Origin: an uncultured Ruegeria sp.
Lineage (GTDB): Bacteria; Pseudomonadota; Alphaproteobacteria; Rhodobacterales; Rhodobacteraceae
Length of the DNA: 64,000 nucleotides
Direction: 5' to 3'
Assembly: GCF_947500045.1 (NCBI RefSeq)
Contig: NZ_CANMQQ010000002.1
Span: forward strand, 400,208-464,207
Every line of letters begins with the position of its first letter. Positions within the stretch are counted from its first letter, which is position 1. The translations under genes and the position numbers were made by a program. The notes beneath the pieces are model-generated. The model saw nothing but the letters and a program-made list of their open reading frames with translations, was not told the DNA's origin and did no database searches. Shown here piece after piece: positions 21,807 through 33,099 of this stretch.

Positions 21807-21859
21807 GGAGCGAGGGGCCAGCCCCTCGCGCACCCCGAGGTATTTTTAGCCAGATGAAA
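21807..21859 (+). repeat. Intergenic palindromic repeat, copy A
   Basis: GGAGCGAGGGGCCAGCCCCTCGCGCACCCCGAGGTATTTTTAGCCAGATGAAA; near-identical to 46974..47027. Confidence 0.85.
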
Positions 21860-25620: not shown

Positions 25621-25876
25621 GTCGTCCTCCCGTTCGAAATCTCGTGTTCGTTGAAATTGGGTCTTGGACGCTCGGAACCTCAAATGTCGTTCTTGGATGA
25701 CGGATTGAGGGGAAGTGTGAACGGGATCAGCGGGTTAGGCAAGGGGATGTTCAAGGTGGATTTGGGCAAGGATATCAGTCCTGCAGCCCTGCAAGGATTG
25801 AAACACTACGCATTCGCTCTAGCCGCAGGCACGAACCACTTTGCGACACAGGTAATTTGCAGTCTCTGCTCGCTTT

Positions 25877-26293
25877 TCACGGCTGTCCGGATTCAAGGAA
25901 AAGTCCACTTTGCTGTGGGGCATCATTGAAAGCTGGAGGAAGGCTAACTAACCCTTCAAGCAAATAAGGATGGATCTCGTCGGACGAAAACAGTGTAGCC
26001 TCTCGATTCCAATGAACGGTATATATCGAATTTTCTAGACCGGGAATTCTGTTGGATCTTGGTTCACCCTTCCCGGTGTAGACGAATATCCAATCCCCTT
26101 TTTTTACCCACCCCATACCGAGCCACATGGAGTTATCATTGATAGGAAAGATGTGGCTATTTGGTTGTTTTATTCCGATCCCGATCCATTGATATTGAAG
26201 ATAAAAGTCTTCTTCGACTTTTATTGGAATCCTCTCGAGGTTCGGTACGCCGCGATCAACTACGTCCATTAGCATCAAAGCAGAGTCGATCAT
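25877..26293 (-). CDS. Hypothetical accessory protein (138 aa)
   Basis: MIDSALMLMDVVDRGVPNLERIPIKVEEDFYLQYQWIGIGIKQPNSHIFPINDNSMWLGMGWVKKGDWIFVYTGKGEPRSNRIPG; start at the end of upstream ORF 26293..26841; AT-richer than flanks. Confidence 0.55.
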   Translation of the reverse strand: MIDSALMLMDVVDRGVPNLERIPIKVEEDFYLQYQWIGIGIKQPNSHIFPINDNSMWLGMGWVKKGDWIFVYTGKGEPRSNRIPGLENSIYTVHWNREATLFSSDEIHPYLLEGLVSLPPAFNDAPQQSGLFLESGQP

Positions 26294-26841
26294 TATGACT
26301 TCCCTTTTGAGAAAAATGCGGTACCAAAAATCCCAACGAGATAGGCTATTGCCGCAACGCCCAGAATTGCCCAATCGCGACCTTCCAAGGGTTCCGCGTT
26401 TGGGACAAATGCCAAAGTCACCAGAATACCGGCCGCGACCAGAATTGCTGTTGAGTACTTCTTCTCCGACTTTGCAGAGTCTCTTTTCTCTCTTTCAACG
26501 CGAACATCAGCCTGCGATAATGCTAGGTCGCTTTTCAGGTCGGCAACCTGTTCTGTTAAATCTCTATTTTGAGACCTAAGTTCGTTGTTCTCCTGTTCCA
26601 ACTCCCTCAGTCTAGCGGCAATCAGATAAGAAGTGTTTGCTCCTGAAATCCCACGAACGTTCTCCTCCGCAATTCGCTTGACGGTTCCGACGAATTCACC
26701 GCTTGCGTATTTCGCCTCTGTCACAGGAGGTAAAACTTCGCCTTCGATTGAAGTGTGTTTTTGGTTTCCAGATGCACCTGAATCTGGGACCTCCGGGATA
26801 CCAGTATGGGCTCTATTTAACTTGGATTTGGGGTTATTCAA
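26293..26841 (-). CDS. Hypothetical accessory protein: coiled coil plus C-terminal two-TM hairpin, probable TTG start
   Basis: RLRELEQENNELRSQNRDLTEQVADLKSDLALSQADVRVEREKRDSAKSEKKYSTAILVAAGILVTLAFVP...WAILGVAAIAYLVGIFGTAFFSKGKS. Confidence 0.6.
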   Translation of the reverse strand: MNNPKSKLNRAHTGIPEVPDSGASGNQKHTSIEGEVLPPVTEAKYASGEFVGTVKRIAEENVRGISGANTSYLIAARLRELEQENNELRSQNRDLTEQVADLKSDLALSQADVRVEREKRDSAKSEKKYSTAILVAAGILVTLAFVPNAEPLEGRDWAILGVAAIAYLVGIFGTAFFSKGKS

Positions 26842-28796: not shown

Positions 28797-29180
28797 ATGG
28801 GCTGCTCTTGTTTTTAAGTTTCCTCCATTATGGCAGGTGATGTGGTCCGGGGGAAGAGGGGCGCGAGGTGTTGTGGGTGGTTTGGCCACCAAGCCGTCCT
28901 TCGCTGCGTTTGCAACCAACCAAGTCCAAACGTCCGCTTTGCGCTGTCTTTGCGCTTGTAAAGTCTGGCGAGCTTCTCTGAAGCCGACATTCAGCCGGGA
29001 AAACACCTTGCGCTAGATTTGAGCCACGACGCGTGTCTATTGGGGTCGGGAACAAATGCTGCGAGTCAACTGGGCAGCTGGCAGCTAAAAGCGTGCACTT
29101 CTAATTTGGGTATAGTCGGTTGCCGCGCCATGTTGCCCAACCTTGAGGCCAAAGCCACTGGGTCACCCAACAAAATCATA

Positions 29181-29214
29181 CGGCAACCTTTGGTTCATCC
29201 AAAGGTTGCCGTTT
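29181..29214 (-). terminator. Hairpin downstream of the 882-aa gene, probable terminator
   Basis: CGGCAACCTTTGG-ttcat-CCAAAGGTTGCCG, 13-bp perfect arms, between parE upstream region and the defence-like ORF. Confidence 0.6.
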
Positions 29215-29287
29215 CATAAGATATATGTTGTGGCACTGCATTATTTTTTTCGGATCCTACCACGGCTCGCAATATGCTATCAATCCC

Positions 29288-31936
29288 CTAAAATTCTACT
29301 AACGACCCTTTCAGTCGTTCGTTGGCTGTATTGTATTCTTTTATCTTTACAATGACTTGATCACCTTCCTCCAGTTCACTGAAGACTACATGAGACGACT
29401 TGCCAAAGTCTGACTGATGCACAAAGCAGTCCATTCCCGAATCAAGTTCAACAAAAATGCCGTAGTTCTGAATTGATGCAACTTGACCCAAGTGTTCTGA
29501 TCCGCGTGGGAAATCTTCCGCGATGCGACTCTTTGCTGAGTAGCCATCACTCTTTACCTCTTTTGACTCAACAAATCTCGTGAGGCTAGCAACCATCTCA
29601 GTGTGTGACCATGAAAAGCTATCTGGTGCTATCTGGTTTTCAAGAAAAAACTGCGACCCGTAACCACTTAAGTAGTTCACCAGGGAAACACTACTGCTTA
29701 GCGCGGCATCTTTTGAACCGGCCTTGAAAAGACCTCTCCCAACAAGGTTGTCCGCAATTCTGTTGGCCACCATGGAGTCCCTGAAGAAGGTGTCTTCCGA
29801 GACAATTGAAAGATAGTTGATGTTTCGAATTACGTTGAGGTGAGTGAACCCAGACGCTGTCAATACAACCAAGTCATCTATGTCAACAGTCTTCGTTAAT
29901 CCTTCTGTCATGACTAGTTCTGATTGCACTAGTGATGCTACCTCAGCAATAGTGCGTTCCCTAGCATGCCCGAGACCTTGCATCACTTGAACTAAGGTTT
30001 CAACTTTGTGGAAACCTTTTGTGTTGTTTGGGCCCGAAACTTTGAAGTTCTCTTTGAGCCAACATAGAATATCTAGTCGAACGAACGGATCTGGAAGCTC
30101 GTCTCGTGGGTCAGAATGAAAAACATTGACTAGCCTAGACTTTTCATCGCTAAAGTAACGACGATTTCCTTTTAGGAGCACTCGATAAACCAAGTGGGAG
30201 GGTAAGCGGTATTCCCCGTTCGAGAGGCGCATCTTAAGGATGTCATCAGCGCTGATATGTCCTGACTTACAAAAATCCAGAACTACTTCGAGCCCTCGGC
30301 GAATATTTCGTCCAGCCAATCCTTTGATAATAGATTTGAAGTGCTTGTCTTGAAACAGAGTGGTGATGATACACCGCATAAAGTTCGCAACTTCGTTTCT
30401 GCCACAGCTTACTATTACACCATTTTCCGTACTGAATCTGAATTTTTCCGGATTGCTACCGACAGATCTCAATAGGTATCCCATTCTCGCAGACAGCACT
30501 TTTTCCAGAAGCGGTGCCTCAATTCGGAATACCAAGTCCTTAATTACGGTATCCAACGGTGGGAGGTCTGAGTAAGTATCGTAAGTCGTGTCCCGAAGAG
30601 GTAGAAAAATTAGACACCTAAATTCATTCTTCAACCATGCTGCGACCTCGAACATTAACAACTGATCATCCCGTGTTCTCTTGTCACAGTTGTCCAAGAC
30701 AATCACTAGGAGAAGCCCTCTCTCTTCGAAAAGAAGAGAAATCAAATTTACAAGCGTCTGCCTGGTGTCTCCCTGCAAGCGCTTCATTTCCTCAGCCAGT
30801 ATTTCCAGGTGCTGGATTGAATCTGGTGGGAAAAATGCGGCTCGCCCTTTAGCAACCGCACCCAACTCCTTTGAGTACAGTTTTTTTAAGAAGTCCAAGG
30901 ATTCGAAATCTATTTCCGGAAAAATGTATCGTATTTTTTTTGATATCGCGTCTAATATCCAGTCGTATATCTCAGTCTTTGACAACGGTGCATTGTTCAA
31001 GTCAACATTAACCCACCGCGTGGATTGTACGAGACTTTGTGGGAGGGCTTTTAACCTCAAAAATTCCGTAAATGTTGACTTTCCAGCTCCAACGCCGCCG
31101 ACCAATAAGCACAGTTCGTTTTTCAGCCGATCTCTATTCTCGAAAGTTCCTAGTGTCTCGAAAATCTCCGTCGGGTTCTCTGTGTCGTTAATAGTGTTAG
31201 AGTCTCTCTGGTGAGGCGGAATAGTTGCACGTAGAACCCTGTCGATAGGGGCCACATGAGACTCCCGGCGTTTAGATCGGATGTAGGCATTTTCTACAAT
31301 CCCGGCCTTTTCCTCAATGGTTTCCGGGTTGAATAGTGATTGATATTCGAGAGAAACGTTCGAGCCAAAATCGTTTGCACCAACAGATTCGTTGATTACT
31401 GATTTTCCGCCCAGAGAGAAAACAGGCTTGGTGTACTTGGCCACACCGCGTATTTCAGATCTGATAGCAGAAACCCTTGACGCTACGACATCTCTTCCGC
31501 CAAACCTCAGAAGGTCAATAAAATCTTGGTTTGTTACACTACAATTCTCAACGTTTAGATCAATTGCAGGGCTCTGTTGATCCGAAAACCCAGCTATCAG
31601 CCGCAACCCATTTGTCGCAATAATTCGCTCACATGGGTTTACTCTATTATCATACAACGCATTTATCTCATGCGCATACAGTCGAGCTTCACGAAAAGCC
31701 TCTTCAAGATTATCGTCGTTTGGCTCTTTCGCCTCAACAATCAAAGAGGGGACCCCATCGATAACTATAGCGTAATCAGGATAGTAGAGTTTTTGACTAC
31801 GCCCCTTACCAATCACTATCTTCCGAATGTCGCGCTTTGTTTGGATATCATCAGGAAAGAAATCCAAGCCATCTGGAGAACTTTTGGTCAGAAGCCCATA
31901 AACAAATTTCTGCTCTACATCACTTTCCGTGAACAT
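29288..31936 (-). CDS. Multidomain HsdR_N-like nuclease / P-loop NTPase / S1 RNA-binding protein (candidate defence protein, 882 aa)
   Basis: N-term MFTESDVEQKFVYGLL...YYPDYAIVIDGVPSLIVEAKEPND (D-x13-ExK); Walker A LLVGGVGAGKSTF; Walker B LLLVIVLDNCDKR; C-term GQVASIQNYGIFVELDSGMDCFVHQSDFG S1 fold; AGGA Shine-Dalgarno upstream of ATG at 31936. Confidence 0.85.
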   Translation of the reverse strand: MFTESDVEQKFVYGLLTKSSPDGLDFFPDDIQTKRDIRKIVIGKGRSQKLYYPDYAIVIDGVPSLIVEAKEPNDDNLEEAFREARLYAHEINALYDNRVNPCERIIATNGLRLIAGFSDQQSPAIDLNVENCSVTNQDFIDLLRFGGRDVVASRVSAIRSEIRGVAKYTKPVFSLGGKSVINESVGANDFGSNVSLEYQSLFNPETIEEKAGIVENAYIRSKRRESHVAPIDRVLRATIPPHQRDSNTINDTENPTEIFETLGTFENRDRLKNELCLLVGGVGAGKSTFTEFLRLKALPQSLVQSTRWVNVDLNNAPLSKTEIYDWILDAISKKIRYIFPEIDFESLDFLKKLYSKELGAVAKGRAAFFPPDSIQHLEILAEEMKRLQGDTRQTLVNLISLLFEERGLLLVIVLDNCDKRTRDDQLLMFEVAAWLKNEFRCLIFLPLRDTTYDTYSDLPPLDTVIKDLVFRIEAPLLEKVLSARMGYLLRSVGSNPEKFRFSTENGVIVSCGRNEVANFMRCIITTLFQDKHFKSIIKGLAGRNIRRGLEVVLDFCKSGHISADDILKMRLSNGEYRLPSHLVYRVLLKGNRRYFSDEKSRLVNVFHSDPRDELPDPFVRLDILCWLKENFKVSGPNNTKGFHKVETLVQVMQGLGHARERTIAEVASLVQSELVMTEGLTKTVDIDDLVVLTASGFTHLNVIRNINYLSIVSEDTFFRDSMVANRIADNLVGRGLFKAGSKDAALSSSVSLVNYLSGYGSQFFLENQIAPDSFSWSHTEMVASLTRFVESKEVKSDGYSAKSRIAEDFPRGSEHLGQVASIQNYGIFVELDSGMDCFVHQSDFGKSSHVVFSELEEGDQVIVKIKEYNTANERLKGSLVEF

Positions 31937-32490
31937 AGTTTTTCCTATATTATTGAGGCAGCACAAGATGTTGCGTTGTAGTATTTGTACGGCTTGCATC
32001 GACATTGGCAAGGAGTAAACGGTGCAACAGGATCTTTGTAGCCATTCGCTTCTTCGCCAAGCTTGAGTTACCCACTGGGCTAACAAAATACTTGCTCTAA
32101 CCTTCAAGCCAAAAAGTTACTTTTCTATGGTGAAGATGTCGAACTCATCGAGCACTTAGAGATGATGTGCCGCAAGTGGTTGCCACGTAATGCCCATTTG
32201 CTGAGCAAGTCGAACGTGCAGAAGTGCTATAGCTGGACCCTGGCAAATGTCTGGTTTGTCCAGCCTCATGACCAATGCAGCGAGAGATTGCCTAGATCCG
32301 CTAGCTGGGGCTTGGAGTTTGGTCGGACGTCTGCTTCGAGCAGTGAGCGCCCTTTCGCGATTGCAGCATTCTTTCCTTGTGGCAATGGCGGGAGTGGGCT
32401 CTTAGTGAATACTCGTCGATTTCGTCTCGCTACCTGATCAAAGCGCTCTTAGTCTGCGGACACGAAGCAATCGAGACAACAGGAACCCAA

Positions 32491-33099
32491 ATGAGCTGGA
32501 TCAAAACCATCCCCTACGCTGAGGCGACGGGTAAGCTGCGTAAACTCTATGACCGTGTGACCGGGCCGGATAACAATGTCGATAACATCATGATGGCGCA
32601 TTCGTTGCGGCCTCATTCGATGGAAGCCCATATGGCGGTCTACAAGAATGTGCTGCACCACTCGGCCAATACGGTGCCCAAGTGGTTTCTGGAAGTGCTC
32701 GGTGTTTGGGTCAGTGCGCTGAATCGGTGCGGGTATTGTGTTGAACATCACTTTTCCGGGCTGCAGCGGTTGTTGCAAGATGAAGCGCGCGGAGATGCGA
32801 TCCGGGCCGCGATTGAAGCGGGTGACCCTGCTTCGGCCCCTTTGGACCCGGCGCAAGTGGCCGCGATGGGGTATGCGCGTAAATTGACCGAGGCACCGGG
32901 CGATCTGACCGAGGCGGATATCATCGCCCTGCGCAATGCCGGTTGGGAAGACGGAGAGATCCTTGAGATCAACCAGGTGTGTTCGTATTTTTCCTATGCG
33001 AACAGGACCGTGCTTGGGCTGGGGTGTTCGACCGACGGGGATGTTCTGGGGCTGTCGCCAAACAACTCGGACAATCCAGACGATTGGGGACATCGGTGA
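32491..33099 (+). CDS. AhpD-like / carboxymuconolactone decarboxylase family peroxidase-related protein
   Basis: TVPKWFLEVLGVWVSALNRCGYCVEHHFSGLQ (CxxC-H AhpD motif). Confidence 0.85.
   Translation: MSWIKTIPYAEATGKLRKLYDRVTGPDNNVDNIMMAHSLRPHSMEAHMAVYKNVLHHSANTVPKWFLEVLGVWVSALNRCGYCVEHHFSGLQRLLQDEARGDAIRAAIEAGDPASAPLDPAQVAAMGYARKLTEAPGDLTEADIIALRNAGWEDGEILEINQVCSYFSYANRTVLGLGCSTDGDVLGLSPNNSDNPDDWGHR

Follow-up and report, generated by a model that had tools for sequence, protein, structure and literature searches.

A mobile-element-borne protein with nuclease, NTPase and S1 domains as a probable single-gene anti-phage system

The window, which is the whole stretch of 64,000 nucleotides analyzed here, holds a solitary gene whose product unites a PD-(D/E)XK nuclease domain, a P-loop NTPase and an S1 domain in one chain. 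Our preferred reading, at a probability of roughly 0.6, is that of a stand-alone anti-phage (superinfection-exclusion) protein borne by mobile elements, in which the NTPase gates the nuclease and the S1 domain senses nucleic acid. The family is probably a one-gene anti-phage system that has so far not been named. Genomic position is the strongest evidence for defense, with the caveat that accessory genes of prophages may also serve other ends than phage defense.

The open reading frame for 882 residues was confirmed on the minus strand, as the initial annotation had it, including the ATG and the AGGA upstream of it. Homologues align from residue 2 onward, where they have TESDVEQKF in common, and the ATG at 31936 is therefore preferred over an upstream TTG at 32107. 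The features, in window coordinates, are as follows.

29288..31936, minus strand: gene of the HsdR_N–NTPase–S1 protein, 882 aa (ORF list, homologue alignment)
31943..31946, minus strand: AGGA ribosome-binding site, 6 nt 5' of the ATG (printed sequence)
31547..31936, minus strand: PD-(D/E)XK nuclease domain, residues 1–130, with E4, D54, E68, K70 and E83xxxY87 (Pfam HSDR_N, model topology, invariance in 46 proteins, weak Foldseek matches to restriction enzymes)
30521..31123, minus strand: P-loop NTPase core, residues 272–472 (Pfam below cut-off, model, Foldseek to CED-4, Cdc6/ORC and RdrA)
31073..31099, minus strand: Walker A GGVGAGKST, residues 280–288 (sequence and alignment)
30683..30715, minus strand: Walker B LLLVIVLDNCD, residues 408–418, with invariant D-N-x-D (alignment)
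29807..30508, minus strand: helical region and winged helix, residues 477–710 (secondary structure of the model)
29297..29503, minus strand: S1 RNA-binding OB-fold, residues 812–880 (Pfam S1, model, Foldseek to bS1 and GSP13)
28886..32408, no strand: low-GC segment missing from related genomes, with 75 bp at the same spot in one relative (genome comparison)

All three parts of the domain layout proposed earlier were recovered. Pfam places HSDR_N at residues 52–111 (E 3.4e-6, 27.5 bits against a cut-off of 25.1) and S1 at residues 815–876 (E 7e-8, above the curated cut-off), while the AAA_22, AAA_16 and KAP matches to the P-loop region fall under their cut-offs; NCBIfam and PDB sequence searches gave a strong match to the S1 part only. 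Since the pattern PD-x(8-20)-[DE]xK turns up in 7% of shuffles of residues 1–130, the nuclease motif alone is weak evidence, but it is invariant in 46 of 46 relatives. Across these aligned proteins of the wider family, E4, D54, E68, K70, Y87, G280, G285, K286, D415, N416, D418, R484 and R546 do not vary, and residue 83 is either E or Q, which gives a (Q/E)xxxY motif.

AlphaFold2, run on 30 sequences, returned a model with a mean pLDDT of 85.7 and a pTM of 0.78. Besides a topology like that of PD-(D/E)XK enzymes, the model shows a P-loop domain, a winged helix and, at residues 814–881, a barrel of five strands. The N-terminal part consists of a helix (4–17), two strands (55–59 and 62–69), a second helix (77–92) and further strands (104–117), with D54 opening one strand and E68-x-K70 closing the next. 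Searched alone with Foldseek, this part gave no significant match (best E 0.024), and the top ranks were mostly PD-(D/E)XK enzymes, namely HincII, BpuSI, EcoR124I HsdR and DrdV. The middle of the whole model matches CED-4, Apaf-1, plant NRC receptors, ORC/Cdc6, TnsC and RdrA, the matches to CED-4, NRC, ORC and RdrA having E values of 1e-5 to 1e-3 at high rmsd; at the C-terminus the matches are bS1 and GSP13. Matches in a viral structure library were to S1 proteins and generic ATPases. AAA+ proteins usually carry a catalytic acidic residue where the DNxD Walker B of this family has Asn. ATP hydrolysis may therefore be weak, and the motif would fit a nucleotide switch better than a motor.

Relatives in viruses and genomes were found with an alignment query, which retrieved 13 loci from IMG/VR and 21 loci from the genome scan; the latter had yielded nothing with a single sequence. 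As a class-wide search gave mostly ribosomal S1, matches to the S1 part only were discarded. All 13 IMG/VR matches are surrounded by phage, satellite or integrase genes. In five of them (L071, L072, L073, L074 and L083) a CI-like repressor gene directly precedes the gene and has the same orientation, and L071 has RecT- and RecE-like genes farther along; these five are related to one another and do not count as five independent cases. In L078 the gene sits between P2 gpA and the portal (gpQ)/terminase genes, an interval described as an anti-phage hotspot (PMC9122126). Another copy belongs to a P4-like satellite with integrase and primase (L076), two have integrases adjacent or near (L080 and L082), and the remaining placements include positions after P2-like tail genes (L081) and after tail genes (L079). 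Two contigs are inovirus-like with Zot-like genes (L075:9203-11866 and L077:8870-11527), and a gene of 2.7 kb is a large cargo for filamentous phages. Among GenBank phages, no match was found in 50,697 records, and a viral scan queried with the cold-shock-bearing relatives described below gave no match.

Plasmids carry the family as well. PLSDB holds two full-length S1-bearing relatives (47% and 41%), one without S1 (28.9%) and a remote group; one plasmid copy lies between a replication gene and parA, another beside a toxin–antitoxin pair. Relatives from the wider family occur in 8 of 5,426 E. coli genomes, and the two copies inspected, both lacking an OB-fold, reside in lambdoid prophages between DUF977 and hokD (L102:12001-14505 and L103:11995-14499, annotated as hypothetical protein). 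No close match to the K. aerogenes relative was found in E. coli.

The chromosomal copies of the S1 family are mostly solitary amid unrelated, mostly housekeeping genes. PADLOC and Pfam scans of 89 chromosomal neighbors detected three integrases, a single YhcG nuclease and a single DUF2130 protein; no gene accompanies the family consistently. The DUF2130 protein is probably the one encoded at L051:8371-9837, directly upstream of the homologue and on the same strand. With few PADLOC matches among the same 89 neighbors, defense islands are not visible around the chromosomal copies, and we claim no enrichment. The candidate defensive role put forward by the initial annotation gains from the prophage, satellite and plasmid placement and from a very patchy distribution, but not from the company of the chromosomal copies; its single-gene organization is borne out, the gene being solitary.

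The tree contains 29 S1-bearing members from Pseudomonadota, Bacteroidota, Bacillota, Desulfobacterota, Delongbacteria and Melainabacteria, and these 29 rows form a monophyletic clade with a branch support of 100/100. Phyla are intermixed, with Flavobacterium and Desulfocapsa adjoining proteobacterial members, and the gene has been transferred horizontally; the tree is midpoint-rooted with long branches, which limits finer claims. The nearest sister of the S1 clade has no S1 domain, several branches of the wider family keep the nuclease without any OB domain, and two remote members carry tandem cold-shock domains in place of S1 at the same C-terminal end. These cold-shock-bearing relatives are located at L036:9134-12007 and L003:757-3765. 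Within the S1-bearing rows of alignment A3, the aromatic pair is retained in most (Y/F at 825 in 21/27, F at 828 in 21/27), and it is mostly lost in a six-row subclade (Bacillota, Delongbacteria, Melainabacteria and a virus contig).

In favor of an anti-phage protein we counted the invariant catalytic and Walker residues, the prophage slots, the low GC content, the sporadic presence, the phylum-mixed tree, the Foldseek likeness of the NTPase to CED-4, NRC, ORC/Cdc6 and RdrA, and the C-terminal end of the family, where one clade has fixed S1 and another has gained tandem cold-shock domains. Counted against it were the housekeeping chromosomal neighbors, the null result in GenBank phages, the subclade with degenerate S1, the weak Foldseek result for the nuclease and the Asn in Walker B. 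Such a protein would work by means of its STAND/ORC-like NTPase, which, together with the winged helix, would hold the N-terminal nuclease inactive until a nucleic acid related to infection, in all likelihood RNA, is bound by S1 at the C-terminus. The S1 ligand and ATP binding would then alter the oligomeric state, and the released nuclease would degrade DNA, either that of the infecting phage or that of the host cell under attack. RNA sensing by S1 is plausible from the sequence, as the aromatic RNA-contact positions persist in most members. More speculatively, the family might represent unnamed immune receptors made of one protein, whose C-terminal OB-fold is swappable (S1, tandem cold-shock or none), senses phage or stress RNA and, by way of an ATP-loaded switch with the invariant DNxD Walker B, unleashes the HsdR-type nuclease. 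If active, the protein would be a compact single-gene immune protein that ties an S1 RNA-binding domain to a nuclease via an NTPase switch and that is spread over phyla by prophages, satellites and plasmids. The natural domain-swap series of S1, cold-shock and no OB-fold lets one ask whether OB-folds sense phage RNA in bacteria.

Two other modes of action are unlikely, and about equally so. The S1 or cold-shock domain could deliver the nuclease to RNA, be it of phage or host, or to ribosomes engaged in translation, with RNA cleavage and growth arrest as the outcome, which has been proposed for CoCoNuTs, whose McrBC-type NTPases and nucleases are joined to CSD and OB domains with predicted RNA targets (PMC11090510). 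That two separate clades carry OB domains of RNA-binding type at the same terminus fits this idea, but the nuclease keeps the full E..D..ExK..(Q/E)xxxY set of DNA-cutting HsdR/RecB-type enzymes, and the OB-less branches retain the nuclease. Alternatively, phage DNA might be recognized directly, by modification or structure, in the manner of type IV restriction, with S1 holding ssDNA or R-loops and the NTPase acting as motor or clamp. The depositor of one relative called it a predicted type IV restriction endonuclease, and the HSDR_N nuclease and the ORC/Cdc6-like fold with winged helix also speak for this reading; however, the Pfam results contain neither a helicase domain nor a modification-reader domain, and S1 is mainly an RNA-binding fold. 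Less probable still is a gene serving only its prophage or plasmid, through maintenance, replication control or inter-element competition, and giving no protection against lytic phages. Such a role would suit the copies next to repressors, in replication regions and near plasmid rep and par genes, but it sits poorly with a gene that occurs in unrelated element types and stands alone, without its element, at many chromosomal sites.

With regard to known systems, PADLOC-DB 2023 gave no meaningful whole-protein match for the window protein or ten relatives. In agreement with the initial annotation, no named system with the nuclease–NTPase–S1 architecture was found in PADLOC-DB, Pfam, NCBIfam or the literature (main text of open-access papers up to August 2026). 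Features that define HsdR, Avs, CoCoNuT and RADAR were looked for and found lacking, for which reason the protein is not filed under any of them. It shares with HsdR (PF04313) the nuclease domain with D..ExK..(Q/E)xxxY, but has no SF2 helicase motor (no helicase model match in Pfam or NCBIfam), carries an added S1 and, as noted at the outset of this work, has no hsdM, hsdS or helicase gene visible among its neighbors. The comparison with Avs is partly apt. The plan of nuclease, NTPase and putative sensor is alike, and the NTPase, with P-loop and winged helix in the model, may be of STAND type, to judge from its Foldseek matches at high rmsd; at the C-terminus, S1 is found instead of a TPR sensor, and PADLOC gave no Avs match. 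The NTPase region also matches RADAR RdrA (E about 3e-4, the matched PDB entries including an RNA-loading state), whereas the solitary gene has no RdrB deaminase partner and its product bears nuclease and S1 in the same chain. In CoCoNuTs and other McrBC-type systems, too, an NTPase and CSD/OB-fold domains go together with a PD-(D/E)XK nuclease (PMC11090510), but the present candidate is a single gene with no second nuclease and no McrB/McrC model match in Pfam, NCBIfam or PADLOC. The prophage exclusion genes rexAB of lambda and old/tin of P2 occupy the same genomic slots, while their proteins are unrelated to this family. IbfA was rejected as the same system, being an ATPase–TOPRIM protein.

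Finally, the window copy is a recent single-gene acquisition beside parE. It lies outside any prophage itself, prophage placement applying to its relatives. Its GC content is about 44%, compared to 55–60% (about 57%) in the flanks; DNA conservation with congeneric genomes ends at 28885 and restarts at 32409–32491, and a near-empty site in one relative has only 75 bp between both conserved flanks. Of the 54 genomes that represent the genus, one has the protein and the 53 others lack it. On this distribution we rejected a housekeeping role in DNA repair or replication, the least probable reading, for which the ORC/Cdc6-like NTPase and the frequent housekeeping neighbors could be cited, but which conflicts further with mobile placement and the lack of conserved neighbors.

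The genes around the insertion, read by eye, are parE, a carboxymuconolactone-decarboxylase-like gene and a polyphosphate-kinase-like gene. The listed parE start is a GTG at 29006, yet conservation with relatives ends at 28885, which probably puts the real start around 28805. The genes found between parE and the carboxymuconolactone-decarboxylase-like gene differ from one species of the genus to another (L096–L101). On the other side of parE, positions 25750–26841 form a second low-GC stretch with two short ORFs, one of which shows, by eye, a coiled-coil-like stretch and hydrophobic segments. A sequence of about 50 bp at 21807–21858 recurs with about 91% identity elsewhere in relatives (L100:4839-4891 and L101:2758-2806) and is perhaps a dispersed repeat.
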